22,000 bases of DNA, from positions 1 through 22,000 of IMG/VR virus record IMGVR_UViG_3300022905_000070; one strand, 5' to 3'. Under the pieces are notes generated by a model. That model saw nothing but the letters and a program-made list of their open reading frames with translations, made no database searches and was not told where the DNA came from. The position numbers were made by a program, and so were the translations under genes. Position 1 is the stretch's first letter, and each line of letters starts with the position of its first letter. The DNA is from a virus. Positions 2,308-20,989 of this stretch are shown here, piece after piece.

Positions 2308-4230
2308 ATGAGTAGATCACGAGACATTGCTACAATGCTTGGTAGAACCGAAGCGGCTAATGCTACAAACAATCCATTATTAAATACTGCATCTTCAGTT
2401 GGACTCGATTCTTCATCAGTATTATCACTCGCATCTTCAGTTGCACTTGATTCTTCATCAGTATTATCACTTATTGATTCTGATTATGTTACAGCACGAG
2501 CTCCAGCCGCCGGCGGTACCGTTAACGTTAACTTGAGCGGTAGTGGAACTGTAGATAAAATTTTGACAGGAGCATCTATTCTTGCAGGGCAAACTCTTAT
2601 TTTAAGACCAGATGATAAGGTAGAAAAAATAGGTCAACCAATAACTAATCATAATAGATTAGTATATCATGTTGGTTTTGGTGGTGGGTACCCACCCAGC
2701 AACGCTGGTGGAAATGGTAATATATCGTATTCTGCGGCATCGTATGCAGATATAATTTATTTAGAAAATAATAAATTTGTTATTTTTTGGACTGATACTC
2801 TTGACCAATCTGGTTATACGAGTTTTAGATGCGCAATGGGTATTTTAAATACAGAAGGAACCTCGGTTACTGCTTGGGGTCCAATATTAAACATCGTCCG
2901 CGGATTTTATAATAGTGGTACGAGCTATGGCTATATATACGGCGGCCATTGGACTGCTTGTAAAGGTGATGATAATAGAATTCACGTGGGATATTCTTGG
3001 CAATATTATTCAAGCTATGTAAGAAGAGTTGGTTATCTTCGTACGATAGTTCCAGGTGATATTAGTAATACATCTGATTTAAGTCTAGCCTTAGGAGCTC
3101 AAGTATCATTATATACAAATACCAGCTCTAGTAATAATTATGTTGTTCGGGCTCCAAGTATAATGTGGGATGAGGAAAATAGATCTAATGGCGGTATTGT
3201 GTTTTGGTACCATTGGGAAGGCTCATACAGCTGGAAAGTGAATTATATTAATACAAGTGGAAATACTATTGAGCTTGGCGGTGCTTATACTTCACCTGGT
3301 GAGATGGCCGGCTTTATAAATCACAACCAAAGAAGCTATTGGGATAATAAACACAAAAAGTGGATTATACCAGCTAAATCAAGCTATGCTGGCAATAGGT
3401 TCGTACTTAATCAATTAACAAGAAGAATAAATCAAGCAGCTTCTGCATCGACAACTGTTAACATTGATTGGGCTAGCGCCACTGCCGGCGGAGATGATGA
3501 AATATATAGTGGAACTGATAACACATATTATGGATGTTGCTATGATTCTGGAGCAGAACGAGGTATTGTTGCATATAATGTAACTAACAGAGTAGGTTGG
3601 GTTAGATCTGTTGCTACTGGGTCGACTTATAATGCCGCTTATACATTGGGTACGGCTGTGCAATTTGCAAATGAGGTTGATAACTGGCCAACCGTTTTTC
3701 ATGATAAAGACCAAAATAAAACTGGTATTATTTGGGAAGAAGATGTAGGAGGTTTCTCAAATACTTTACTTAGATGGCTAACATGCGATAGTATAGGAGT
3801 CATATCACTTGAAGATAGTACTCATCAATTCTTCCCTACAGGAACATCACCAATATTTTTTGGTAGAAAATTAGATGGTTTTCCAACAATGTTATATTCT
3901 ACAAACGGCGACACAGTTGATGGATATACTACCGGCGGTACTGTTAAATTTGGAATATATCAACCAGAAGTAAGAGGAACATCAAACCTAAGAGATGATG
4001 GTGCAAATTATTTGGGTATGGCACAAAATGCCGCTGATAGTGGTGATAGTGTCACTATAGGTCTTAATGGTTATATTGATAATAATCAATTTGGACTTAT
4101 TCCGGGTAATACATATTATATTAATAAAATTAATGGTTCCTTAGACTTAGGAACAAACAATGGTTCTGTTGTTGCCGGTATTGCAACAGCTAATGGATCA
4201 ATACAAATACAAACCGTAGATTCAGCATGA
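2308..4230 (+). CDS. Large tail fibre/adhesin, propeller-like body with fibre C-terminal domain
   Basis: This 640-residue protein has GGAGAGG at 2290-2296, 11 nt before its ATG. Residues 5-18 (RDIATMLGRTEAAN) match the docking peptide of the preceding fibre. Residues 29-42 and 43-56 are a 14-residue tandem repeat (SSVxLDSSSVLSL). Residues about 110-530 contain repeated blocks with Trp, Tyr and Asp/Asn turns (IIYLENNKFVIFWTD, HWTACKGDDNRIHVGYSW, APSIMWDEENRSNGGIVFWY, WPTVFHDKDQNKTGIIWEED), suggesting a beta-propeller or sialidase-like body. Residues about 570-640 (NYLGMAQNAADSGDSVTIGL, FGLIPGNTYYIN, VVAGIATANGSIQI) match a C-terminal module I recognise from marine phage fibres. It is probably a late-expressed receptor-binding protein. 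The propeller reading is inference; enzymatic activity is not shown. Confidence 0.82.
   Translation: MSRSRDIATMLGRTEAANATNNPLLNTASSVGLDSSSVLSLASSVALDSSSVLSLIDSDYVTARAPAAGGTVNVNLSGSGTVDKILTGASILAGQTLILRPDDKVEKIGQPITNHNRLVYHVGFGGGYPPSNAGGNGNISYSAASYADIIYLENNKFVIFWTDTLDQSGYTSFRCAMGILNTEGTSVTAWGPILNIVRGFYNSGTSYGYIYGGHWTACKGDDNRIHVGYSWQYYSSYVRRVGYLRTIVPGDISNTSDLSLALGAQVSLYTNTSSSNNYVVRAPSIMWDEENRSNGGIVFWYHWEGSYSWKVNYINTSGNTIELGGAYTSPGEMAGFINHNQRSYWDNKHKKWIIPAKSSYAGNRFVLNQLTRRINQAASASTTVNIDWASATAGGDDEIYSGTDNTYYGCCYDSGAERGIVAYNVTNRVGWVRSVATGSTYNAAYTLGTAVQFANEVDNWPTVFHDKDQNKTGIIWEEDVGGFSNTLLRWLTCDSIGVISLEDSTHQFFPTGTSPIFFGRKLDGFPTMLYSTNGDTVDGYTTGGTVKFGIYQPEVRGTSNLRDDGANYLGMAQNAADSGDSVTIGLNGYIDNNQFGLIPGNTYYINKINGSLDLGTNNGSVVAGIATANGSIQIQTVDSA
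2338..2361 (+). repeat. 24-bp exact direct repeat, copy 2 (fibre N-terminus)
   Basis: This is identical to 1123-1146 and encodes the same LGRTEAAN stretch. The pair provides homology through which fibre bodies could be exchanged behind a fixed docking peptide. Confidence 0.95.
2392..2475 (+). repeat. Two tandem 42-bp in-frame repeats
   Basis: Copies at 2392-2433 and 2434-2475 differ at about six positions, mostly at the end of the second copy. Each encodes SSVxLDSSSVLSL plus one residue. They lie between the docking peptide and the fibre body and probably form a flexible or extended linker. Confidence 0.9.
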
Positions 4231-6728: not shown

Positions 6729-8948
6729 ATGGCTACACCGAATGTAGACACACGTGAATTTTTGTCCCAAACGAAATTTTATGATGGATATTCGCGCTTT
6801 AAAGAAGAAGGAAATGGCGGCTATGAGTCATGGGAAGAGGCTGTAGATCGTGTTATTTCAATGCACGAAGAAAATTTTTCAGAATATGAAAAAGATTTAA
6901 GGCCATATTTAGAAGAAGCTCGTACCGCATATCATGAGCAAAGAGTACTTGGAGCTCAGCGCGCACTACAATTTGGTGGTGATTCGTTAATGAAGCATCA
7001 AATGAGAATGTATAATTGTACTTCATCGTATGCGGATCGTCCTGCATTTTTTGGTGAATTTTTTTATATTTTATTATGCGGTGCTGGTGCAGGATTTTCT
7101 GTACAAAACCACCATATTTCAAAACTACCTAAGATCCAACAAAGGACAAAGCAAGCTAAAGGCTATATTGTAGAGGATTCGATTGAAGGTTGGGCTTCTG
7201 CATTGGATGTTCTTATGTCCTCTTATTTTGTCGGTGGCGGTAAACATCCGGATTACGAGGGTAGAAGAGTCTTTTTTGATCTTACTCATATTCGTCCAAA
7301 AGGCGCTAAGATCTCTGGTGGATTTAAGGCTCCTGGCCCAGAAGGTTTACGTCGTTCACTTGATAAAATTGAATTGATTCTACAAAGTCTTGTAATTGAT
7401 TCAAAAGAACCAGTTAAAATACGACCTATTACTGTATATGATATTTGTATGCATGCTGCTGATGCAGTTCTTTCTGGTGGTGTTCGTCGTTCTGCAACCA
7501 TTTGTCTTTTTTCACCAGAAGATGATGAGATGATGAATGCTAAAACAGGCAATTGGTTTATGGATAATCCTCAGCGTGGCCGCAGTAATAACTCTGCAGT
7601 AATTGTCCGTGATGAAGCTACTCCTGAAATGTTTGCAAAGATTATGGAGTCTGTGAAATCATTTGGTGAACCAGGTTTCTATTTTACTACATCAAAAGAA
7701 CATACAACTAATCCTTGTGTTGAAATTGGAATGTTCCCACAATACGAAGGTGAATCAGGTTGGCAAGGCTGTAACCTCACCGAGATTAATGGTGGCTCGT
7801 GTAAAACCGAAGAAGATTTCTATAAGGCATGCCGTGCAGGTGCTATCTTAGGTACATTACAAGCCAGTTATACAGATTTTAAATTTCTATCACCAGTTTC
7901 AAAGAAAATTTTTGATAGAGAAGCATTGCTAGGTGTATCAATTACTGGTTGGATGAACAATCCTGATATTCTTTTTAATGAAAAAATTTTAGAAAAGGGA
8001 GCCAAGATTGTCAAGGATATCAATAAGAAAGTTGCCAACATTATTGGTATTAATCCTGCTGCTCGGACTACTTGTGTTAAGCCCAGTGGCAATGCTTCCG
8101 TATTACTTCAAACTGCTTCCGGCATACATGCCGAGCATAGCCCTATGTACATCCGTAATATCCAAATGAATAAAGAATCTGAGATTACACAGGCTATTAT
8201 TAAGTCAAATCCATATATGGTAGAAGAATCAGTATGGTCTGCTAATGGTACTGATGTTGTAATTTCATTTCCTATTATTCCTAATAAAGGTTCAATGTAT
8301 AAAGATGAACTTTATGGGGTAAAACATTTAGAATTAGTAGCAAAAGCTCAAAAACATTGGGTTATTGCTGGTACAAATGAAGAACTTTGTGCAGATAAAG
8401 GTGTACGACACAATGTATCTAATACAATCATTGTTGACGATTGGGATGCTGTAGAAAAATATGTATTCGAAAATCGCTATTCATTCTCTGGTATTTCGTT
8501 TTTAAGCATGTCTGGCGATAAGGACTATAATCAGGCACCAAACACTGCAGTGATTGATGAAAAACAAATGATTCGTAAATACGGACCGTCTGCAATCTTT
8601 GCTTCAGGTCTTGTAGTAGATGCAATGAAAGTATTCCCGAATCTATGGGATGCATGTTCTACTGCACAGGGTTATGGCTTGGATATCACACTTGAATCAT
8701 CAGAAAATTCTGCAAGACAGGATTGGGTAAGACGATTTGAAAACTTTGCAAATAACTATTTGAAAGGTGATATGAAAAAAGCAGAACACTGCTTGAAGGA
8801 TGCATATCTTTTCCATAAGTGGAATAAGATTCAACAGAATCTGAAACCGATTAATTGGAATGAAGATCTTACAGAACAGGTATTTACTGATGTAGATACT
8901 ATGGGTGCTGCAGCATGTGCTGGAGGTGCCTGTGAGATTGACTTTTAA
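6729..8948 (+). CDS. nrdJ: Class II (adenosylcobalamin-dependent) ribonucleoside-triphosphate reductase
   Basis: This monomeric RNR of 739 residues, the same length as the Lactobacillus leichmannii enzyme, converts ribonucleotides to deoxyribonucleotides for phage DNA synthesis. Cys97 (YNCTSS) fits one active-site redox Cys. NPCVE around Cys330 fits the thiyl-radical Cys with its Asn and Glu partners, and GCNLTE at Cys348 the second redox Cys. The C-terminal pair Cys730/Cys735 (CAGGAC) fits the swinging-arm reductant. Other segments such as GAGAGFSV and GGVRRSATI support the barrel. Class II enzymes need vitamin B12 coenzyme and no oxygen, so host cobalamin is implied. A promoter sits in the 126-bp gap upstream, GAGG precedes the ATG, and the stop overlaps the next ATG (TAATG). 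Confidence 0.95.
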   Translation: MATPNVDTREFLSQTKFYDGYSRFKEEGNGGYESWEEAVDRVISMHEENFSEYEKDLRPYLEEARTAYHEQRVLGAQRALQFGGDSLMKHQMRMYNCTSSYADRPAFFGEFFYILLCGAGAGFSVQNHHISKLPKIQQRTKQAKGYIVEDSIEGWASALDVLMSSYFVGGGKHPDYEGRRVFFDLTHIRPKGAKISGGFKAPGPEGLRRSLDKIELILQSLVIDSKEPVKIRPITVYDICMHAADAVLSGGVRRSATICLFSPEDDEMMNAKTGNWFMDNPQRGRSNNSAVIVRDEATPEMFAKIMESVKSFGEPGFYFTTSKEHTTNPCVEIGMFPQYEGESGWQGCNLTEINGGSCKTEEDFYKACRAGAILGTLQASYTDFKFLSPVSKKIFDREALLGVSITGWMNNPDILFNEKILEKGAKIVKDINKKVANIIGINPAARTTCVKPSGNASVLLQTASGIHAEHSPMYIRNIQMNKESEITQAIIKSNPYMVEESVWSANGTDVVISFPIIPNKGSMYKDELYGVKHLELVAKAQKHWVIAGTNEELCADKGVRHNVSNTIIVDDWDAVEKYVFENRYSFSGISFLSMSGDKDYNQAPNTAVIDEKQMIRKYGPSAIFASGLVVDAMKVFPNLWDACSTAQGYGLDITLESSENSARQDWVRRFENFANNYLKGDMKKAEHCLKDAYLFHKWNKIQQNLKPINWNEDLTEQVFTDVDTMGAAACAGGACEIDF

Positions 8949-9693: not shown

Positions 9694-9730
9694 GTGTACA
9701 TTTACGGAAAAGCGTGATATAATAATCCTA
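9694..9730 (+). promoter_or_regulatory. GTGTACATTT-type promoter upstream of RNase H
   Basis: GTGTACA at 9694-9700, continuing as GTGTACATTT; 17-nt spacer; TATAAT at 9718-9723 with an extended -10 TG at 9715-9716; predicted +1 A9730. The leader to the ATG at 9753 is 23 nt and contains AGGAG. Confidence 0.88.
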
Positions 9731-12955: not shown

Positions 12956-12992
12956 GTGTACATTTACGTGAAAATAGTGTATAATATTACTA
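12956..12992 (+). promoter_or_regulatory. GTGTACATTT-type promoter upstream of the deoxyribonucleotidase
   Basis: GTGTACA at 12956-12962 (decamer GTGTACATTT), 17-nt spacer, TATAAT at 12980-12985, predicted +1 A12992 in CTATAA. It may also drive the long downstream glycan cassette, since no other promoter of this family is seen until 19353. Confidence 0.9.
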
Positions 12993-13547: not shown

Positions 13548-13743
13548 AGAAACAGTCGAGGACTTTAAACTCGAACAGTACGGTTCTGATATAAATAGCC
13601 TTAAGTGGTTTGTGGAGAATGGACATAAGTCCAATTCACTTCGTAATGGATACCAAATGGCATTAGAGATTGCCGAAGCAATCATTACGGAGTACGAAAA
13701 TGGCGGAAGAGATCACAGAAGTAGGTTTTCATCCTGCAGATAG
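13507..13743 (+). CDS. Small unknown protein with non-ATG start (about 78 aa)
   Basis: The frame overlaps both neighbours. There is no ATG near its beginning; TTG at 13507, with TTGGAGA 8 nt upstream, or GTG at 13513, is the likely start. The helical product contains RFEETVEDFKLEQYGSDINS, LKWFVENGHKSNSLRNGYQM and ALEIAEAIITEYENG, which reads like a real folded protein, then a 17-residue tail where it overlaps the EF-hand gene. No family is recognised. A TATAAATA octamer lies inside it. Confidence 0.6.
   Translation: MNVQELLNLRTRFEETVEDFKLEQYGSDINSLKWFVENGHKSNSLRNGYQMALEIAEAIITEYENGGRDHRSRFSSCR
13590..13597 (+). promoter_or_regulatory. Possible late-promoter octamer upstream of the EF-hand gene
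   Basis: TATAAATA lies about 100 nt before the ATG at 13700, on the coding strand and within another ORF. This fits late expression of the membrane protein, but single octamers occur by chance in DNA this AT-rich. Confidence 0.35.
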
Positions 13744-14032
13744 CAACGGTGACGGAAAGGTCAGCGAAGCAGAAGAAAAGATGTACCTTGAGTTTAAGCG
13801 TAAAGAACTAGAAGATGCGGATGCAATGCGTGATGCACAGCGTAAGATGGCTTGGTTTAGTTTAGCAGGTATGCTACTATATCCAGCAATTGTATTGATT
13901 GCAGTGTTAGCTGGCGTTGATCAGGCTGCTAAGATCCTAGGTGATATGGCTGCAGTTTACTTTGTATCTGTTGCGGCTATTGTTGCTGCATTCTTTGGTG
14001 CACAAGCAATGGGTACAAAGCCTAAAAAATAA
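13700..14032 (+). CDS. EF-hand protein with two membrane helices
   Basis: GGAG at 13688-13691 supports the ATG at 13700 rather than 13670. The 110-residue protein carries a canonical 12-residue EF-hand loop, Asp14 to Glu25 (DSNGDGKVSEAE), then a charged helix (FKRKELEDADAMRDAQRK) and two membrane helices at about 51-72 and 83-103, ending KPKK. The loop has ligands at positions 1, 3, 5 and 12, as for Ca2+ binding. I recognise the overall pattern from unnamed marine T4-like phage proteins. Two helices, small size and a basic tail are also the layout of class II holins, so a Ca2+-responsive membrane or lysis role is possible. That part is inference. Confidence 0.82.
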   Translation: MAEEITEVGFHPADSNGDGKVSEAEEKMYLEFKRKELEDADAMRDAQRKMAWFSLAGMLLYPAIVLIAVLAGVDQAAKILGDMAAVYFVSVAAIVAAFFGAQAMGTKPKK

Positions 14033-14049: not shown

Positions 14050-14835
14050 ATGAAAAGAATGATCTATCAAGTTGCTGTTGGAGCAAGATCTAGATTATAT
14101 CATCATTGTATCGGTTCTGTTGCACAATATTGTGACAAATACAATATTGAACATATTGTGCAACAAGTTCCTATTCTTAAAATTAAACCGGATATCTTTA
14201 CTACAAATCGTAGTAAAGAATCCTATGAGAAACATGGCGGATTCCTTCCTATCTATGAGAAGGAAAACGCCTTTTCTTATTTTGATAAGTATGATCAAAT
14301 TGCTATTATTGATGCGGATATTTGGATTCGACCAAACTCACCGAATATTTTTGAGGATATAAAAATTGGTTCTGATTTTGGTGGAGTTGTTGAGTCTTCA
14401 ATGCCAATTCTTCCATGGTACGAACAAAAGATTGCAAATTATTCTAGAATGCAGTATGGTCAACTTAGAATCAATTGGCAATATACCGATAAAACCGGTT
14501 TTCCATTTATGAATATGGGTATGATGGTAATGAATAAATCATTTGCCAAATATTTAAAAGGGCAATCACCAGAACAATTTATTCGTAGAGATGAATTTAA
14601 AGCCTTCGTTGATGGCTTAGGACCATATAAGTGGTCAACTGATCAAACTCTACTTAATTATTGGGTAAATACATGTGGTATGACAGTGGAAAAAATGGAC
14701 TGGAAATGGAATGCTCTATATACCGCAATTGATAATGAAAAAATTAAAGAGGCAAATTTTGTACATTTTTTCCTAAAGGACAAATTGCCAAACAGAGGCG
14801 AAAACGTAGAAGAGTTAATGAAGCATGTTGCTTGA
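14050..14835 (+). CDS. GT-A-fold glycosyltransferase (GT8-like)
   Basis: First gene of the glycan cassette, 18 nt after the EF-hand gene, with a modest ribosome site (GAAAG). The 261-residue protein has the GT-A nucleotide-sugar pattern: N-terminal strand MIYQVAVGA, a helix, YDQIAIIDADIWIRP with the metal-binding DxD at Asp88/Asp90, then GFPFMNMGMMVMNKSF, which resembles the acceptor-side loop of GT8-type enzymes, and a C-terminal WSTDQTLLNYW. It would transfer a sugar from a nucleotide donor; donor and acceptor cannot be read. It overlaps the sulfotransferase gene by 11 nt. Confidence 0.8.
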   Translation: MKRMIYQVAVGARSRLYHHCIGSVAQYCDKYNIEHIVQQVPILKIKPDIFTTNRSKESYEKHGGFLPIYEKENAFSYFDKYDQIAIIDADIWIRPNSPNIFEDIKIGSDFGGVVESSMPILPWYEQKIANYSRMQYGQLRINWQYTDKTGFPFMNMGMMVMNKSFAKYLKGQSPEQFIRRDEFKAFVDGLGPYKWSTDQTLLNYWVNTCGMTVEKMDWKWNALYTAIDNEKIKEANFVHFFLKDKLPNRGENVEELMKHVA

Positions 14836-15511
14836 ACAAAAACTATTTGTGCATATTCCTAAAAATGCTGGATGTACAATCAGACTTAATCCAGAAATTA
14901 GTCGTTTTGTGATTGATGCTAATCCAAAAACTCATATTAGTGAAGAATATACGGAAGATCTTCTTAAGACTATGAATGAGATTGGAGATCATCATGGATT
15001 TGCCCATGCTCGTTGGAGAGATTTTAAGGTCGACTTGAGACAACAATATCAAGCATTTACAATTATACGTAATCCATGGGATCGAGTAGTGTCACGCTAC
15101 TTCTTTGCAAAGAAAACTATTGAGATTGAAAAGAAGAATCCACCAGATTATGCAGACATTTCTTCATTTGAAGCATTTTTAGAAGAAAGACATAAATGGG
15201 CAAATAAGCCATATATGTGGCATAGAGCTATTCGTGGATGGTACAATCAGGCTGATTATGTTACAGATGAGAATGGCACTATTCGTTGTGATATTCTAAG
15301 ACAAGAAAAGCTAGCATTCGATCTTAAATCATATCTTAAAATTATGAATATGCCTAGATCTCGTAACGTGACTGGTCTTAATAAAGATTATCGAGATGTT
15401 TATACACCACAAACCATTCAGATCGTAGCAGACTGGTATAAGAAAGATATAGATACTTTTGGATTCGATTTTGATACATGTGCTACTAAAAATATTTGGA
15501 GTAAATTTTAA
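14825..15511 (+). CDS. PAPS-dependent sulfotransferase (carbohydrate type)
   Basis: The 228-residue protein has the two PAPS-binding motifs of the Sulfotransfer_2 type: FVHIPKNAGCT (residues 8-18, 5'-phosphosulfate loop) and IIRNPWDRVVSRYFF (80-94, 3'-phosphate site with Arg82 and Ser90). It would move sulfate from PAPS to a hydroxyl of a glycan or other host molecule. The C-terminal part (WYNQADYV, RCDILRQEKLAFDLKSYLKI) is also family-like. PAPS must come from the host, as no PAPS synthesis gene is visible here. Overlap with the preceding glycosyltransferase and TAATG coupling to the next gene place it firmly in the cassette. Confidence 0.88.
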   Translation: MLLEQKLFVHIPKNAGCTIRLNPEISRFVIDANPKTHISEEYTEDLLKTMNEIGDHHGFAHARWRDFKVDLRQQYQAFTIIRNPWDRVVSRYFFAKKTIEIEKKNPPDYADISSFEAFLEERHKWANKPYMWHRAIRGWYNQADYVTDENGTIRCDILRQEKLAFDLKSYLKIMNMPRSRNVTGLNKDYRDVYTPQTIQIVADWYKKDIDTFGFDFDTCATKNIWSKF

Positions 15512-16074
15512 TGCTTACAGCAACTCTTGAGGGAATTACAACATTAAAAGAGTTTTATACCTCTATTAGATCACAACAAGAAAACCATCACGGTAAAGAG
15601 TACTGTGCACATCATGATGCAATAACAAAATATGCAAATGGGTGTGAATCATATAAAGAATTGGGAACTCATCAGGGAGCCACTGCTGCTGCAGCTGTAT
15701 TTGCGGGGTTTAAAAAAATAACTCTCGTTGACATGGATCATTATAAAATAAGACCTAACGAAAATATTTTTAAAACTCATTGCATGCTTGAGAAGATCGA
15801 ACTCGATATTATTGAATCTGATTCTTTGCATTCTCGTACAGCAAGTGAAGTAGATGTATTGCTTATTGATTCAAGACATACTTACGATCATTGTAAAAAA
15901 GAGTTGGCATTACATGCAAAGTTTGTAAAAAAATATATTATTTTTCATGATACTGCTGCAATCCCAGGATTGAAAAGAGCGGTCACCGAATTTGTGTCTA
16001 ACAATAAAGAATGGGAAGTCTTAGAGCATTATGAAGAGAACGTTGGCTATAGCGCGATTGGGAGAAAGCAATGA
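15511..16074 (+). CDS. Class I SAM-dependent methyltransferase (Methyltransf_24/CmcI-like)
   Basis: Coupled to the sulfotransferase by TAATG. The 187-residue protein has the Rossmann methyltransferase layout: YKELGTHQGATAAAAVFAGF (48-67, SAM-binding motif I), ITLVDMD with Asp74 binding the SAM ribose, and DVLLIDSRHTYDHCKKEL (115-132) followed by IIFHDTA (144-149), typical of the Methyltransf_24/CmcI group that methylates sugars and small natural products. It probably O-methylates a sugar or another product of the cassette. The exact substrate is unknown. It overlaps the next gene (ATGA). Confidence 0.82.
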   Translation: MLTATLEGITTLKEFYTSIRSQQENHHGKEYCAHHDAITKYANGCESYKELGTHQGATAAAAVFAGFKKITLVDMDHYKIRPNENIFKTHCMLEKIELDIIESDSLHSRTASEVDVLLIDSRHTYDHCKKELALHAKFVKKYIIFHDTAAIPGLKRAVTEFVSNNKEWEVLEHYEENVGYSAIGRKQ

Positions 16075-16643
16075 ATACCTTTTTTGATCTAGGAGCTGGA
16101 TCAGGAGATGACATTAAAGGATTTTATGAATTAGATGAAGATCATAAAACATGGTCAGTTCATGCGTTTGAAGCAAATAAAGATAGATCATTAAAGCTTA
16201 AAAAAAGATATCCAAATATTACAGTAGTTGAAGCCGCGGCTGGTACTTTTGACGGTGTCGGTACTTTTTATAAAGGTCATAATCAAAATGGATTCTCGCT
16301 TAAAAGAGAAAAAATCGGAAATCTTGGTAAGCAAGAGGAAGTACATGTTGTAGACATCTGCAAATATATAGAGAACACGTGTTCCCGTGATGATAAAATC
16401 TGTATGGTTATTGACATTGAAGGTGGTGAATATGAAATTGTTGATGCTCTAAAAGAGACAGGCATTATTGATTGGATTGATGATTTGTATATTGAGTTTC
16501 ATGGTAATAAATTATCAGGATTTGATATCGATATTGAAGATAAAATGGTAGACTATCTTATTGAAAAATTTGGCGATAATGTATACATTTATCGTAAACA
16601 TCAACATGAACAATTTTTAAAGTTAAATGCAGAGGGCGCATGA
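16071..16643 (+). CDS. FkbM-family methyltransferase
   Basis: The ATGA overlap couples it to the preceding methyltransferase. The 190-residue protein has FFDLGAGSGDD (motif I), VHAFEANK (motif II region), VVEAAAGTFDGVGTFY, VVDICKYI and ICMVIDIEGGEYEIVDAL (111-127), an order diagnostic for the Methyltransf_21/FkbM type. FkbM enzymes O-methylate sugars or macrolides and are common in surface polysaccharide clusters. With the first methyltransferase it gives two methyl caps in one cassette. The next gene starts at the overlapping ATGA. Confidence 0.87.
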   Translation: MNTFFDLGAGSGDDIKGFYELDEDHKTWSVHAFEANKDRSLKLKKRYPNITVVEAAAGTFDGVGTFYKGHNQNGFSLKREKIGNLGKQEEVHVVDICKYIENTCSRDDKICMVIDIEGGEYEIVDALKETGIIDWIDDLYIEFHGNKLSGFDIDIEDKMVDYLIEKFGDNVYIYRKHQHEQFLKLNAEGA

Positions 16644-17335
16644 AAGCTTACGTAATTCAAATTGAAGGTAATGAGATATCTCAAAAGGGTACAGATATTC
16701 TTATTGCTTCTTCCAATAAAGTAAAAAATAAATTTAGTATTGAAAAATTTGATGCTATTACCAGTAAGATGACAGATGCTCTAATGGTTGGTAATGGACT
16801 TAAATGGAAATACCCGTGGCAAGGACAAGAGACTGATCTTAAAACAGGGCTTATTAAGACTGCCTATCAAACTGAAATAAAAGAAAATAGAATTGCATGC
16901 GCGTTGAGTCATTGGCTGCTATGGCACAAATGTAAAACATTAGATGAACCTATTCTTATCTTAGAGCATGATGCAATTTTTATTAAAAAATTAGATTATA
17001 ATTCTATTCTTAAAAATAATTATGATATTATAGGAATTAATAGTCCGGCCGCTGCCACTCGAAGAGCACATCAGTTTCATGATATTGTGCAGAGTAAAGC
17101 CGCATGGATCCAGCCCACACCAGATATTGATGAATTTAATGTTCCTCAAGGTCTTGCTGGAAATTCAGCATATATAATTAAACCTGCTGGAGCTAGTAAT
17201 TTACTTAATGCAGTAAAAGAACATGGATTATGGCCTAATGATGCAATTATGTGTAAACAATTAATTCCTCGATTAGGCGTAACTAAAGAGTATTATACAA
17301 GAGTACAAGGGTTACCATCAACCACGGTGAATTGA
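16640..17335 (+). CDS. GT25-family glycosyltransferase, copy 1
   Basis: The 231-residue protein has features of LPS-type GT25 enzymes: N-terminal MKAYVIQIEG, RIACALSHWLLW (84-95, the conserved ACxxSH block), and ILILEHDAIF with Glu109-His110-Asp111 as the metal/donor motif. The C-terminal GLAGNSAYIIKPAGA (about 174-188) matches the usual GxxxYxIxPxGA block. These enzymes add sugars to lipopolysaccharide or glycoproteins. It shares these blocks with the next gene, so the two are paralogues. Overlap is ATGA on the 5' side; 1 nt separates it from the next gene. Confidence 0.85.
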   Translation: MKAYVIQIEGNEISQKGTDILIASSNKVKNKFSIEKFDAITSKMTDALMVGNGLKWKYPWQGQETDLKTGLIKTAYQTEIKENRIACALSHWLLWHKCKTLDEPILILEHDAIFIKKLDYNSILKNNYDIIGINSPAAATRRAHQFHDIVQSKAAWIQPTPDIDEFNVPQGLAGNSAYIIKPAGASNLLNAVKEHGLWPNDAIMCKQLIPRLGVTKEYYTRVQGLPSTTVN

Positions 17336-17336
17336 A

Positions 17337-17987
17337 ATGAAAGCGTTTGTTATAACAATTATGGACAATCAGAAGTCTGTAGAAGCTGCAACACGTTGTA
17401 TGAAATCTGCAGAAAAATATGGATTGCATGTAGAATATCACCCAGCTTATACGCCTAAGGATAAACCTTGGGAGATTCTACATAAAAAAGGAATCTCTCC
17501 GCACGGTTTTGTAGAAAGATATTCTAGATTAGAAAACTGTATGTCATGTTTTCTATCACATCATTCCTTATGGGAAATGGCTGTAGAAAACAATGAAACA
17601 ATTGTCATATTCGAACATGACGCAATTGTAACTGGGGAGGTGCCGGTTAACATGCCTTTCGAAGGCTGTATGACATTCTCGAAACCATCATATGGTAAAT
17701 TTAATACTCCTATAAAACTCGGCGTAGACGGTCTAGTGCAAAAACAATACTTTGGTGGGGCACATGGATATATGATTAATCCAAATGGCGCAAAGAAATT
17801 TATTACTAAAGCATTAATTAATGCTGGACCAGCAGACACATTTATCAATCTACAAAACTTTCCATGGCTGCAGGAGTATTATCCATGGGTTTGTATAGCA
17901 GCAGATAATTTTACTACGATTCAAAAGAATGATGGATGTATTGCAAAACATAATTTTAAAGATGGGTATGAGATAATTGATGCGTAA
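17337..17987 (+). CDS. GT25-family glycosyltransferase, copy 2
   Basis: Immediately after copy 1, this 216-residue paralogue begins MKAFVITIMDNQ, contains CMSCFLSHHSLWE (68-80), IVIFEHDAIV with Glu93-His94-Asp95, and GGAHGYMINPNGAKKF. Spacing of the SH block, EHD and GxxxYxIxPxGA follows copy 1, but the sequences are well diverged, so they probably attach different sugars or act at different positions. No ribosome site stands out; coupling is likely. The 3' end overlaps the next gene by 8 nt. Confidence 0.84.
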   Translation: MKAFVITIMDNQKSVEAATRCMKSAEKYGLHVEYHPAYTPKDKPWEILHKKGISPHGFVERYSRLENCMSCFLSHHSLWEMAVENNETIVIFEHDAIVTGEVPVNMPFEGCMTFSKPSYGKFNTPIKLGVDGLVQKQYFGGAHGYMINPNGAKKFITKALINAGPADTFINLQNFPWLQEYYPWVCIAADNFTTIQKNDGCIAKHNFKDGYEIIDA

Positions 17988-18660
17988 GAATCCTGAAAAA
18001 ATAATTGTAACTGGGTGTGATCAAAAAACAGAATGGCAATTGCCATGGTTTTTAGAAAATTATTATAAACATAACACCATTCCTGTAGCTCTAGCAGACT
18101 TCGGTATGTCTGAAAATATGCTTAATCTTATTAGGAATAGATTTAATCTTTATTGCTCAATGGAGCTAGCTCCTGATGAAGATCTAAAAGGTTGGTTCTT
18201 AAAGCCAGCAGCAATGTTGGCAACTCCTGGTAAACAAGTATTTTGGATAGATACTGATTGTCAAATCTTAGGCAATATTGAAAATATGTTTAAATATATT
18301 GAACCGAACAAACTTACAATGGCAATTGATAGACCTTGGCTTAAGCGTAGAAAAGAAGAATGGCATAATTCGGGTGTAGTAGGATTTGAAAATAGACCCA
18401 TTGTTCTTCATCAGTGGGCTGCAGAAGTAAAAAACAATCCTAAAGTTGGAGATCAGGAAGTGTTACATAGTATGCTTAATCCTATCACTAAAATGACATA
18501 CATTAGAGAATTGCCTAATGAATATAATTGGTTACGACTTCAAGTCGAAAATGATGGAGAAGATAGTCCTAAAAAGAAAATTATGCACTGGACAGGCGAA
18601 AAGGGTAATGAGCGTATCAGAGGATTAATTAAAATTGCGGAGACAATTAGAAATGTCTAA
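17980..18660 (+). CDS. DxD glycosyltransferase (GT-A fold)
   Basis: I start at ATG 17980; the in-frame TTG just before it is less likely. The 226-residue protein has IIVTGCDQKTEW near the N-terminus, GWFLKPAAMLATPGKQVFWI with the DxD of IDTDCQIL (Asp91/Asp93), a WHNSGVVGFENRP block and QEVLHSMLN, consistent with a GT8/GT-A nucleotide-sugar transferase. Its weak resemblance to the first cassette gene suggests a shared fold rather than recent duplication. Acceptor and donor are unknown. The next gene's ATG lies inside its 3' end. Confidence 0.76.
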   Translation: MRKNPEKIIVTGCDQKTEWQLPWFLENYYKHNTIPVALADFGMSENMLNLIRNRFNLYCSMELAPDEDLKGWFLKPAAMLATPGKQVFWIDTDCQILGNIENMFKYIEPNKLTMAIDRPWLKRRKEEWHNSGVVGFENRPIVLHQWAAEVKNNPKVGDQEVLHSMLNPITKMTYIRELPNEYNWLRLQVENDGEDSPKKKIMHWTGEKGNERIRGLIKIAETIRNV

Positions 18661-19345
18661 AGTTGTACATGTGATTGGTAACGGCGATGCGGCCATCTTT
18701 TATAATGAAGCACCTCGTAAGGGCTTAAAACTAGCCTGTAATATAGCACCGTTTCCCATTGATAATTGCTACGCCACATGTCTAGTAGATTTTAAAATGA
18801 TGAAGACTATTCACAAAGGTGACATTGATGTGCCGGGTGAGTGGATTCTTGGTGCTAGACCAAAAGCATATATGGAAAAAAATACTAATTTTCATATGCA
18901 AAGATCCCATCAAATTAAAATGTTTTATACAAAATTGCCTAAATATGCAGCTAATTACACCGACTTTAATTGTGGTCATATGGCAGTATATTTTGCTGCT
19001 CAACACTTAAAAGCAGATAGAATCCACATGTATGGATTTGATTCTATTTTTGATTTTAATCTTCGCAGTTATACTGATCTTGTAATTCCTTCTGATCGTG
19101 GTAATATGAATAATAATCGATTGTCAAACAATTGGCGACCTCTTTGGCAAAACATGTTTAAAGATTTTAATGGTACCGGTAAAGAACATCGATGCGAATT
19201 TGTTTTGCATCATATGCACGATAAGTTAAAATTTAAAAATGGTGATAACGTAATTATTGAAAAATACGGTAATCGTAAAGAAATTTTACCAATGGATAAG
19301 AAGCATGAACAAACTTGGCAACCTCCAGCAAATGGTGTAATGTAA
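18653..19345 (+). CDS. Rossmann-like glycan-cassette protein (DUF115/MptE-like or sialyltransferase-like)
   Basis: The ATG at 18653 is preferred over 18635 because the protein then begins SKVVHVIGNGDAAIFY, a nucleotide-binding-like N-terminus, with GGAG at 18638-18641. Other blocks are LACNIAPFPIDNCYATCLVD, VPGEWILGARPK, FNCGHMAVYFAAQHL and RIHMYGFDSIFDFNLRSYTD, which recur in unnamed marine phage proteins and recall DUF115/MptE or sialyltransferase-like folds. Which of these is right I cannot tell. It closes the cassette; a family promoter follows in the gap. Confidence 0.72.
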   Translation: MSKVVHVIGNGDAAIFYNEAPRKGLKLACNIAPFPIDNCYATCLVDFKMMKTIHKGDIDVPGEWILGARPKAYMEKNTNFHMQRSHQIKMFYTKLPKYAANYTDFNCGHMAVYFAAQHLKADRIHMYGFDSIFDFNLRSYTDLVIPSDRGNMNNNRLSNNWRPLWQNMFKDFNGTGKEHRCEFVLHHMHDKLKFKNGDNVIIEKYGNRKEILPMDKKHEQTWQPPANGVM

Positions 19346-19352
19346 ATTAACT

Positions 19353-19389
19353 GTGTACATTTACTAAAAAACAGTTTATAATAATATCA
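19353..19389 (+). promoter_or_regulatory. GTGTACATTT-type promoter upstream of the metallopeptidase gene
   Basis: GTGTACA at 19353-19359 (decamer GTGTACATTT), 17-nt spacer, TATAAT at 19377-19382, predicted +1 A19389. The leader to the ATG at 19407 is 18 nt with GAGGG. Confidence 0.88.
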
Positions 19390-20912: not shown

Positions 20913-20989
20913 GGTTCCGTAGCTCAGCTGGATAGAGCAACAGCCTTCTAAGCTGTGGGTCGAGGGTTCGAATCCTTCCGGAATCGCCA
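20913..20989 (+). tRNA. tRNA-Arg (anticodon UCU)
   Basis: The 77-nt cloverleaf folds completely. The acceptor stem has one G-U pair, the D arm is GCTC/GAGC, the anticodon stem ACAGC/GCTGT holds anticodon TCT at 20947-20949 in a seven-base loop, the T arm has loop TTCGAAT, and the CCA end is encoded. It reads AGA (and possibly AGG). AGA is used often in this phage's genes, so the tRNA probably supports codon use rare in the host. Confidence 0.96.

Follow-up and report, generated by a model that had tools for sequence, protein, structure and literature searches.

A conserved five-gene transferase frame with exchangeable interior genes in uncultured T4-like phages, a candidate late operon for virion glycosylation

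A 22 kb stretch of the uncultured virus record IMGVR_UViG_3300022905_000070 (hereafter the window) carries an eight-gene cassette (g1–g8, positions 14050-19345) of predicted glycan-assembly and glycan-tailoring enzymes. Comparison with its relatives revealed that these genes, taken as one conserved system in a preliminary description of the window, are not an indivisible unit: g1 and g5–g8 constitute a conserved frame, and g2–g4 are exchangeable cargo. The locus may represent a late glycan operon whose chain decorates a virion protein, a reading to which we assign a probability of roughly 0.5.

Layout and conservation of the cassette

The region is filled by eight intact plus-strand open reading frames (ORFs) whose ends overlap (g1/g2, 11 bp; g2/g3, 1 bp; g3/g4 and g4/g5, 4 bp each; g6/g7 and g7/g8, 8 bp each, given ATG starts at 17980 and 18653) or abut, with a 1 bp gap at the g5/g6 joint. 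The consecutive, same-strand arrangement originally described was thereby reproduced, and only the starts of g7 and g8 were moved, these lying probably at the two ATGs rather than at TTGs. The functional unit probably begins upstream, with the 13700-14032 gene. Because IMGVR_UViG_3300025767_002151 carries the same set of genes at 77-92% identity, chance or an assembly artefact is excluded.

Relatives were retrieved from IMG/VR with g1 and g8 separately, and loci were collapsed at 95% protein identity. IMG/VR holds at least 431 relatives of g8. Of 75 independent g8 loci whose upstream sequence was long enough, 71 show the order g5-g6-g7-g8, and of 45 independent g1 loci with sufficient downstream sequence, 44 contain the complete frame. 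Frame order is nearly invariant down to ~47% g8 identity, and exactly one g8 copy occurs in 12 of the 13 long records searched. Seven records with cassette relatives, 93-220 kb in size, contain gp23 at high significance (PF07068, E ~1e-148), so the cassette-bearing phages are assigned to the T4-like group by sequence; the window itself lacks gp23.

The g1-to-g5 gap varies from 1.2 to 6.7 kb among loci. Across 54 loci, the interiors comprise 224 ORFs in 43 protein clusters, on a single strand throughout. L014 and L017 carry g1 and g8 ~80% identical to those of the window, yet different interior sets, and the g2–g4 trio is common to the window and L013 (81-92% identity). Homologues of g3 occupy several positions, including between g5 and g6 in L005, L006 and L163. 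Sugar-related interior families include nucleoside diphosphate (NDP)-sugar epimerases, a polysaccharide pyruvyltransferase, nucleotidyltransferases and several sulfotransferase types, alongside several methyltransferase types, FkbM proteins, IMPDH, an asparagine synthase-like amidotransferase, a radical SAM/B12 protein and extra GT8-like and GT25 enzymes. Two cargo genes are fusions, one joining a HAD phosphatase to a sugar nucleotidyltransferase (L060:4539-5891) and the other a cytidylyltransferase to a mannose-6-phosphate-isomerase-type cupin (L028:8364-9113). Such sugar-specific cargo strengthens the glycan reading first proposed for the window, which gains from the epimerases, pyruvyltransferase and sugar nucleotidyltransferases of relatives.

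The strong turnover of interior genes between related phages is what would be expected if the locus were a loose, hypervariable region in which metabolic genes had accumulated independently, without a shared function. This explanation is nevertheless very improbable, as the near-invariant frame is usually present once per record, the interior genes are all co-oriented and the window joints overlap or abut; frequent frame loss or rearrangement and degraded active sites were looked for and not found. The preliminary description is supported in that the enzymes are genuine, retain their active-site motifs and occur together much more often than chance would give. The two outcomes named beforehand as speaking against it, lost catalytic residues and occurrence as unrelated singletons, did not appear in the orthologue alignments and the locus survey.

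As a separate observation, sequence just before g1 in L046 (~2270-2326) resembles a tRNA 3′ end (GGTTCGAATCCTGC) and may have served the cassette as a site of integration or recombination.

Frame enzymes

Domain calls derive from Pfam, PHROG and NCBIfam profile searches of the window proteins; the NCBIfam search of the eight genes placed g4 alone. Catalytic motifs are kept in the orthologue alignments of the cassette enzymes.

The first frame gene, g1 (14050-14835), encodes a GT8-like glycosyltransferase of GT-A type with a DxD motif and an invariant T-D-Q. It falls slightly below the Pfam cut-off for Glyco_transf_8 (PF01501; E 3.8e-5, 23.8 vs 24.3 bits), and the GT8 profile matches 23 of 31 g1 orthologues (E <= 0.1). 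D88 and D90 of the DxD motif are invariant across 31 sequences. Its AlphaFold2 (AF2) model (pLDDT 91.7) indicates a GT-A fold enzyme with DxD, with fold matches to UGGT (E 1.1e-10), the PBCV-1 capsid glycosyltransferase 2p6w (E 1.4e-8) and LgtC (E 1.9e-7).

Two GT25 glycosyltransferases follow the cargo. Both g5 (16640-17335) and g6 (17337-17987), a diverged paralogue at 25% identity, clear the PF01755 cut-off of 24 bits (E 1.6e-16 and 61.2 bits for g5; E 3.9e-14 and 53.4 bits for g6) and keep the conserved motif, EhDa and EHDA, respectively. The product of g7 (17980-18660) is a GT-A glycosyltransferase of Nucleotid_trans/glycogenin-like type, marginally over the Nucleotid_trans cut-off (E 1.3e-4, 22.4 vs 22 bits), with a conserved DtDc motif (DTDC in the window); a g7 profile matches glycogenin-1 (E 1.3e-4).

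The last frame gene, g8 (18653-19345), encodes a probable sugar transferase with a DUF115/MAF–GT29/GT42 sialyltransferase-like fold. Its alignment contains 39 invariant residues over 27 sequences, with GNG, VDFK, GFDS and a C-terminal H-x-H kept. The match to MptE/DUF115 (PF01973) is sub-threshold (E 0.0086, 16.4 vs 34.6 bits) and is seen in four of 27 members. With the AF2 model (pLDDT 86.7), fold matches were obtained to uncharacterised phage proteins (TM 0.68), to a DUF115 protein in BFVD (E 5.6e-4) and, weakly, to sialyltransferases; a PDB profile search and a PDB fold search of the model gave no significant match. The fold class is therefore tentative, a lead rather than a family membership. 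The GNG...CN...GFD pattern may resemble that of GT42 enzymes. The earlier label of a Rossmann-like protein proved too narrow, the fold relatives being of DUF115/GT29 type.

Cargo enzymes of the window

The cargo begins with g2 (14825-15511), a carbohydrate sulfotransferase dependent on 3′-phosphoadenosine-5′-phosphosulfate (PAPS). It matches Pfam Sulfotransfer_2 (E 1e-10, 42.6 bits; cut-off 22) and PHROG 3347, galactose-3-O-sulfotransferase (E 3e-15), and both PAPS-binding motifs, HIPKNAG and RNPWDRVVSRY, are conserved. The next gene, g3 (15511-16074), encodes a predicted class I S-adenosylmethionine (SAM) methyltransferase resembling Methyltransf_24 and rhamnosyl O-methyltransferases. Its Methyltransf_24 score lies slightly below the cut-off (E 3.9e-5, 24.9 vs 26.3 bits) and its glycine-rich SAM motif, ElGtHQG, is conserved; we regard it as methyltransferase-like, not as assignable to the Methyltransf_24 family. 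The third, g4 (16071-16643), is an FkbM-family methyltransferase by both PF05050 (E 3.6e-6, 27.6 bits; cut-off 22.7) and TIGR01444 (E 2e-12, 47.8 bits; cut-off 37.7).

Late promoter element and head gene

A T4-type late promoter element, TATAAATA, lies on the plus strand at 13590-13597, within the coding sequence of the 13507-13743 gene and 110 bp before the ATG at 13700. The late consensus is TATAAATA in T4 and KVP40 and NATAAATA in S-PM2 (PMC2984593). The window contains four plus-strand copies of TATAAATA and none on the minus strand, the others being a tandem pair at 2255 and 2266 before the fibre-like gene at 2308 and one copy before the 10599 gene; directly before g1 the motif was sought and is absent. 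At the 13590 site it is present in 38 of 64 distinct loci, compared with ~1 expected from its overall rate. The GAT-ATA-AAT codons (Asp-Ile-Asn) of the element are uniform (1.00 per column) in a protein family with a median identity of 45%, where the commonest codon of other conserved isoleucines accounts for 38-45% of sequences, and loci with Asp in place of Asn retain TATAGATA. This codon invariance, together with the Asp variants, points to selective constraint at the DNA level, with the caveat that the loci share ancestry. Elsewhere in the 13507-13743 gene, an L-R-N stretch is also unusually uniform in its codons (CTT CGT AAT) and may coincide with a further DNA or RNA element.

Five near-identical early-type (sigma-70-like) promoters of the form TGTACA-N17-TATAAT, extended GTGTACATTT, were located at 9695, 12957, 19354, 20037 and 21851, all on the plus strand with 17-base spacing and each just before a gene. 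One (12957-12985) serves the unit upstream of the cassette, and another (19354-19382), 9 bp past the end of g8, the next unit; the same promoters occur in relatives L013, L017, L024, L093 and L137. Given the late element at 13590 and early-type promoters on the flanking units, the cassette looks like a late unit placed between early units.

The first gene of this late unit, u13670 (13700-14032, plus strand), encodes a small protein that combines an EF-hand-like loop (DSNGDGKVSEAE) with hydrophobic helices towards the C terminus. It lies immediately 5′ of g1 in ~40 of 64 loci, and nine of ten long records contain a single copy. In cultured pelagi- and methylophages, its homologues (HTVC008M, 75% identical; Melnitz phages, 64%) sit between the baseplate-hub assembly gene and the next large gene, which in HTVC008M is a putative tape measure. 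This placement of its homologues links the unit to virion genes.

Assembly mechanism and acceptor of the glycan

The initiating phosphoglycosyltransferase (PF02397) and flippase (PF01943) families were found in none of the 19 long relative records, with bacterial controls positive, and hydropathy analysis detected no membrane helices in the cassette enzymes; a hydrophobic stretch occurs in two of 145 interior proteins. As neither these carrier-linked families nor membrane helices were found, synthesis of a Wzx/Wzy-type polymer is unlikely, and the sugars are probably transferred one at a time in the cytoplasm. Capsule and O-antigen loci of the Wzx/Wzy type share with the cassette conserved flanks around a variable, strain-specific middle, but differ in the two families not found in its relatives.

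We propose that the locus serves an uncultured T4-like phage as an operon for glycan assembly, transcribed late in infection. In the host cytoplasm, g1, g5, g6, g7 and g8 would make a common short oligosaccharide from nucleotide sugars, and the interior enzymes, here the g2 sulfotransferase and the g3 and g4 methyltransferases, would supply donors or tailor the chain, such that swapped cargo would give each phage its own terminal signature. The acceptor would most likely be a virion protein (of the tail, baseplate, fibre or capsid), to which the sugars are added directly and ahead of particle assembly, in the manner of the chlorovirus capsid glycan. We infer in this scheme the roles of the frame as core maker and the cargo as decorator, the reaction order and, most importantly, the acceptor. 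Soluble enzymes and late timing favour cytoplasmic glycosylation of a virion protein, and the predicted fold resemblance of g1 to the PBCV-1 capsid transferase and to UGGT, whose substrates are glycoproteins, was counted on the same side. The fuller proposal is slightly more tentative than the late operon as such: modular phage virion glycosylation, in which a five-transferase core with interchangeable tailoring, expressed late, yields a phage-specific sulfated, methylated or pyruvylated coat with a counterpart in chloroviruses.

The strongest competitor is remodelling of host lipopolysaccharide (LPS) or lipooligosaccharide (LOS), which we rate as possible though less probable than virion decoration. 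Here the frame would extend or replace the outer core at the cytoplasmic face and the cargo would cap it, altering receptors so as to block superinfection or to prevent released virions from re-adsorbing to debris. LPS-core transferases are soluble, cytoplasmic and of the same families (GT8 LgtC, GT25 LgtB, GT42 Cst), and core LPS needs no lipid-carrier genes. The combination of GT8, GT25 and a sialyltransferase-like fold resembles known LOS outer-core loci (LgtC, LgtB/E and Cst), whose enzymes are soluble and peripheral and require no polymerase or flippase; those loci differ in being cellular and acting on lipid A-core, and g8 scores below every GT42 and DUF115 family threshold. Host LPS modification is also the published reading for pelagimyophage glycosyltransferase clusters (PMC7029224) and for the 24 LPS genes of P-SSM2 (PMC2984593).

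Timing and neighbourhood tell against this alternative. The promoter is late, whereas superinfection blocks are usually early, as for T4 imm and sp, although a late LPS change could still count at release; and the head gene, u13670, has its counterparts in the tail block. These two features are why a virion protein is preferred over the LPS core as acceptor. The preliminary description had left fibre decoration and a superinfection-related LPS change side by side; the late promoter and the virion-block head gene, which it had missed, shift the balance towards the virion and away from superinfection exclusion.

Several points weigh against virion decoration. Both the glycan and its acceptor are putative, and because LPS-core transferases of the same families are also soluble, the enzyme set does not separate a protein from an LPS acceptor. 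The products of g5, g7, g8 and g2 are basic (median isoelectric point 8.3-9.0), which also suits peripheral membrane enzymes and is thus compatible with LPS remodelling; tried as a discriminator of lipid and protein acceptors, the isoelectric point gave no separation. The late element is predicted from sequence, with the exact motif missing in ~40% of loci, and may be retained for u13670 alone. Read-through from the early promoter at 12957 could enter the cassette, no terminator being shown between them. Finally, completeness is not proven for the longest relative records.

A third reading, that the sugar chain is placed on a hydroxymethylated base of phage DNA against restriction, is improbable. 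It would draw on a thymidylate-synthase/hydroxymethylase-family protein (PF00303; a 226-251 aa open frame) found in seven of 19 relative records; L157-L162, from cassette-bearing phages, encode short thymidylate-synthase-family proteins (~218-240 aa) with an RSNDxVxGxxND motif, in which synthase and hydroxymethylase are not distinguished. The protein is absent from the other 12 records, including ones of 160, 141 and 111 kb, and PHROGs label it thymidylate synthase. The DNA glucosyltransferases known from T4 belong to the GT-B class and are not late, and sulfo-, pyruvyl- and epimerase cargo fits this option as poorly as late timing does. DNA modification, one of the options initially raised for the window, is accordingly disfavoured. 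Collagen-like hydroxylation and glycosylation, by a 2-oxoglutarate (2OG) oxygenase plus GT25, was also considered and dropped, as no oxygenase was found among the annotated genes of the window.

Comparison with known systems

Chloroviruses encode cytoplasmic transferases and an O-methyltransferase, and build glycans in which virus-specific decorations and an O-methyl cap are added to a conserved core (PMC7826918, PMC5408694). PBCV-1 capsid glycosylation (A064R, A111/114R and others) resembles the cassette in its soluble viral transferases and methyltransferase, and g1 is fold-related to the PBCV-1 capsid transferase. PBCV-1 is, however, a eukaryotic virus; in the review searched, its genes are not described as one operon and no sulfotransferase is mentioned. 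Its acceptor is proven, whereas the virion protein proposed for the cassette is putative.

Glycosyltransferase clusters of marine T4-like phages are already known (PMC7029224, PMC2984593). Those of pelagimyophages and P-SSM2 likewise combine several transferases, GT8 prominent among them, with sugar-synthesis genes located in variable regions. In HTVC008M, the g7 homologue (36% identical) is part of a sugar-gene cluster, next to genes for methyltransferase, carbamoyltransferase and UDP-glucose dehydrogenase. They are described as variable tail-fibre and LPS islands, whereas the cassette has a fixed-order five-transferase frame with its own late promoter. In the host recognition cluster (HRC) of pelagimyophages, transferases lie amid tail fibres between VrlC and gp14; the cassette adjoins exonuclease, ribonucleotide-reductase and nucleotidase genes, with fibre-like genes 10 kb off and VrlC and gp14 not located.

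A search of 50,697 deposited phage records returned no match to g1, a single match to g8 (40%) and, for g7, HTVC008M only; GT25 matches in deposited phages were confined to distant cyanophage 2OG-oxygenase-associated proteins and uncultured marine viruses. By sequence search, the module thus appears not to be carried by deposited phages. A limited search of open-access literature found no description of the frame/cargo layout with an embedded late promoter and no paper on this gene combination, which is weak evidence of novelty. The suggestion of an undescribed system therefore stands in part: transferase clusters as such are known, and what is new, as far as that search goes, is the five-gene frame with an interchangeable interior and a late promoter.

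Transferase clusters of marine T4-like phages have so far been read as host-LPS modifiers, a reading of which we found no test. The fixed frame, swappable cargo and late promoter narrow the question to two specific alternatives, the virion coat and the host surface. If virion decoration is correct, hundreds of uncultured marine phages may bear sugar coats that differ between strains and influence adsorption, decay and grazing. In that case, the frame genes would also serve as a convenient marker and lead to new enzymes for sugar tailoring.

Genomic surroundings

Neighbours of the cassette in the window encode ribonucleotide reductase, exonucleases, an endonuclease, a DNA-binding protein and a nucleotidase. 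Host assignment through GTDB failed, the six matches being metagenome-assembled genome contigs scattered over unrelated groups (Bacteroidota, Rhodobacteraceae, Verrucomicrobia); four carry the module and may be binned phage contigs. For the ribonucleotide reductase (6729-8948), Rhizobium phage RHph_I1_18 is the nearest relative among deposited phages (62%), far above any marine phage. A tRNA-Arg (anticodon TCT) lies at 20913-20989 on the plus strand. Two fibre-like proteins (1090-2241 and 2308-4230) have a common N-terminal anchor (MA/MS..RDIAT.LGRTEAAN) and differ beyond it, and L039 contains four relatives of the 1090-2241 protein in tandem.

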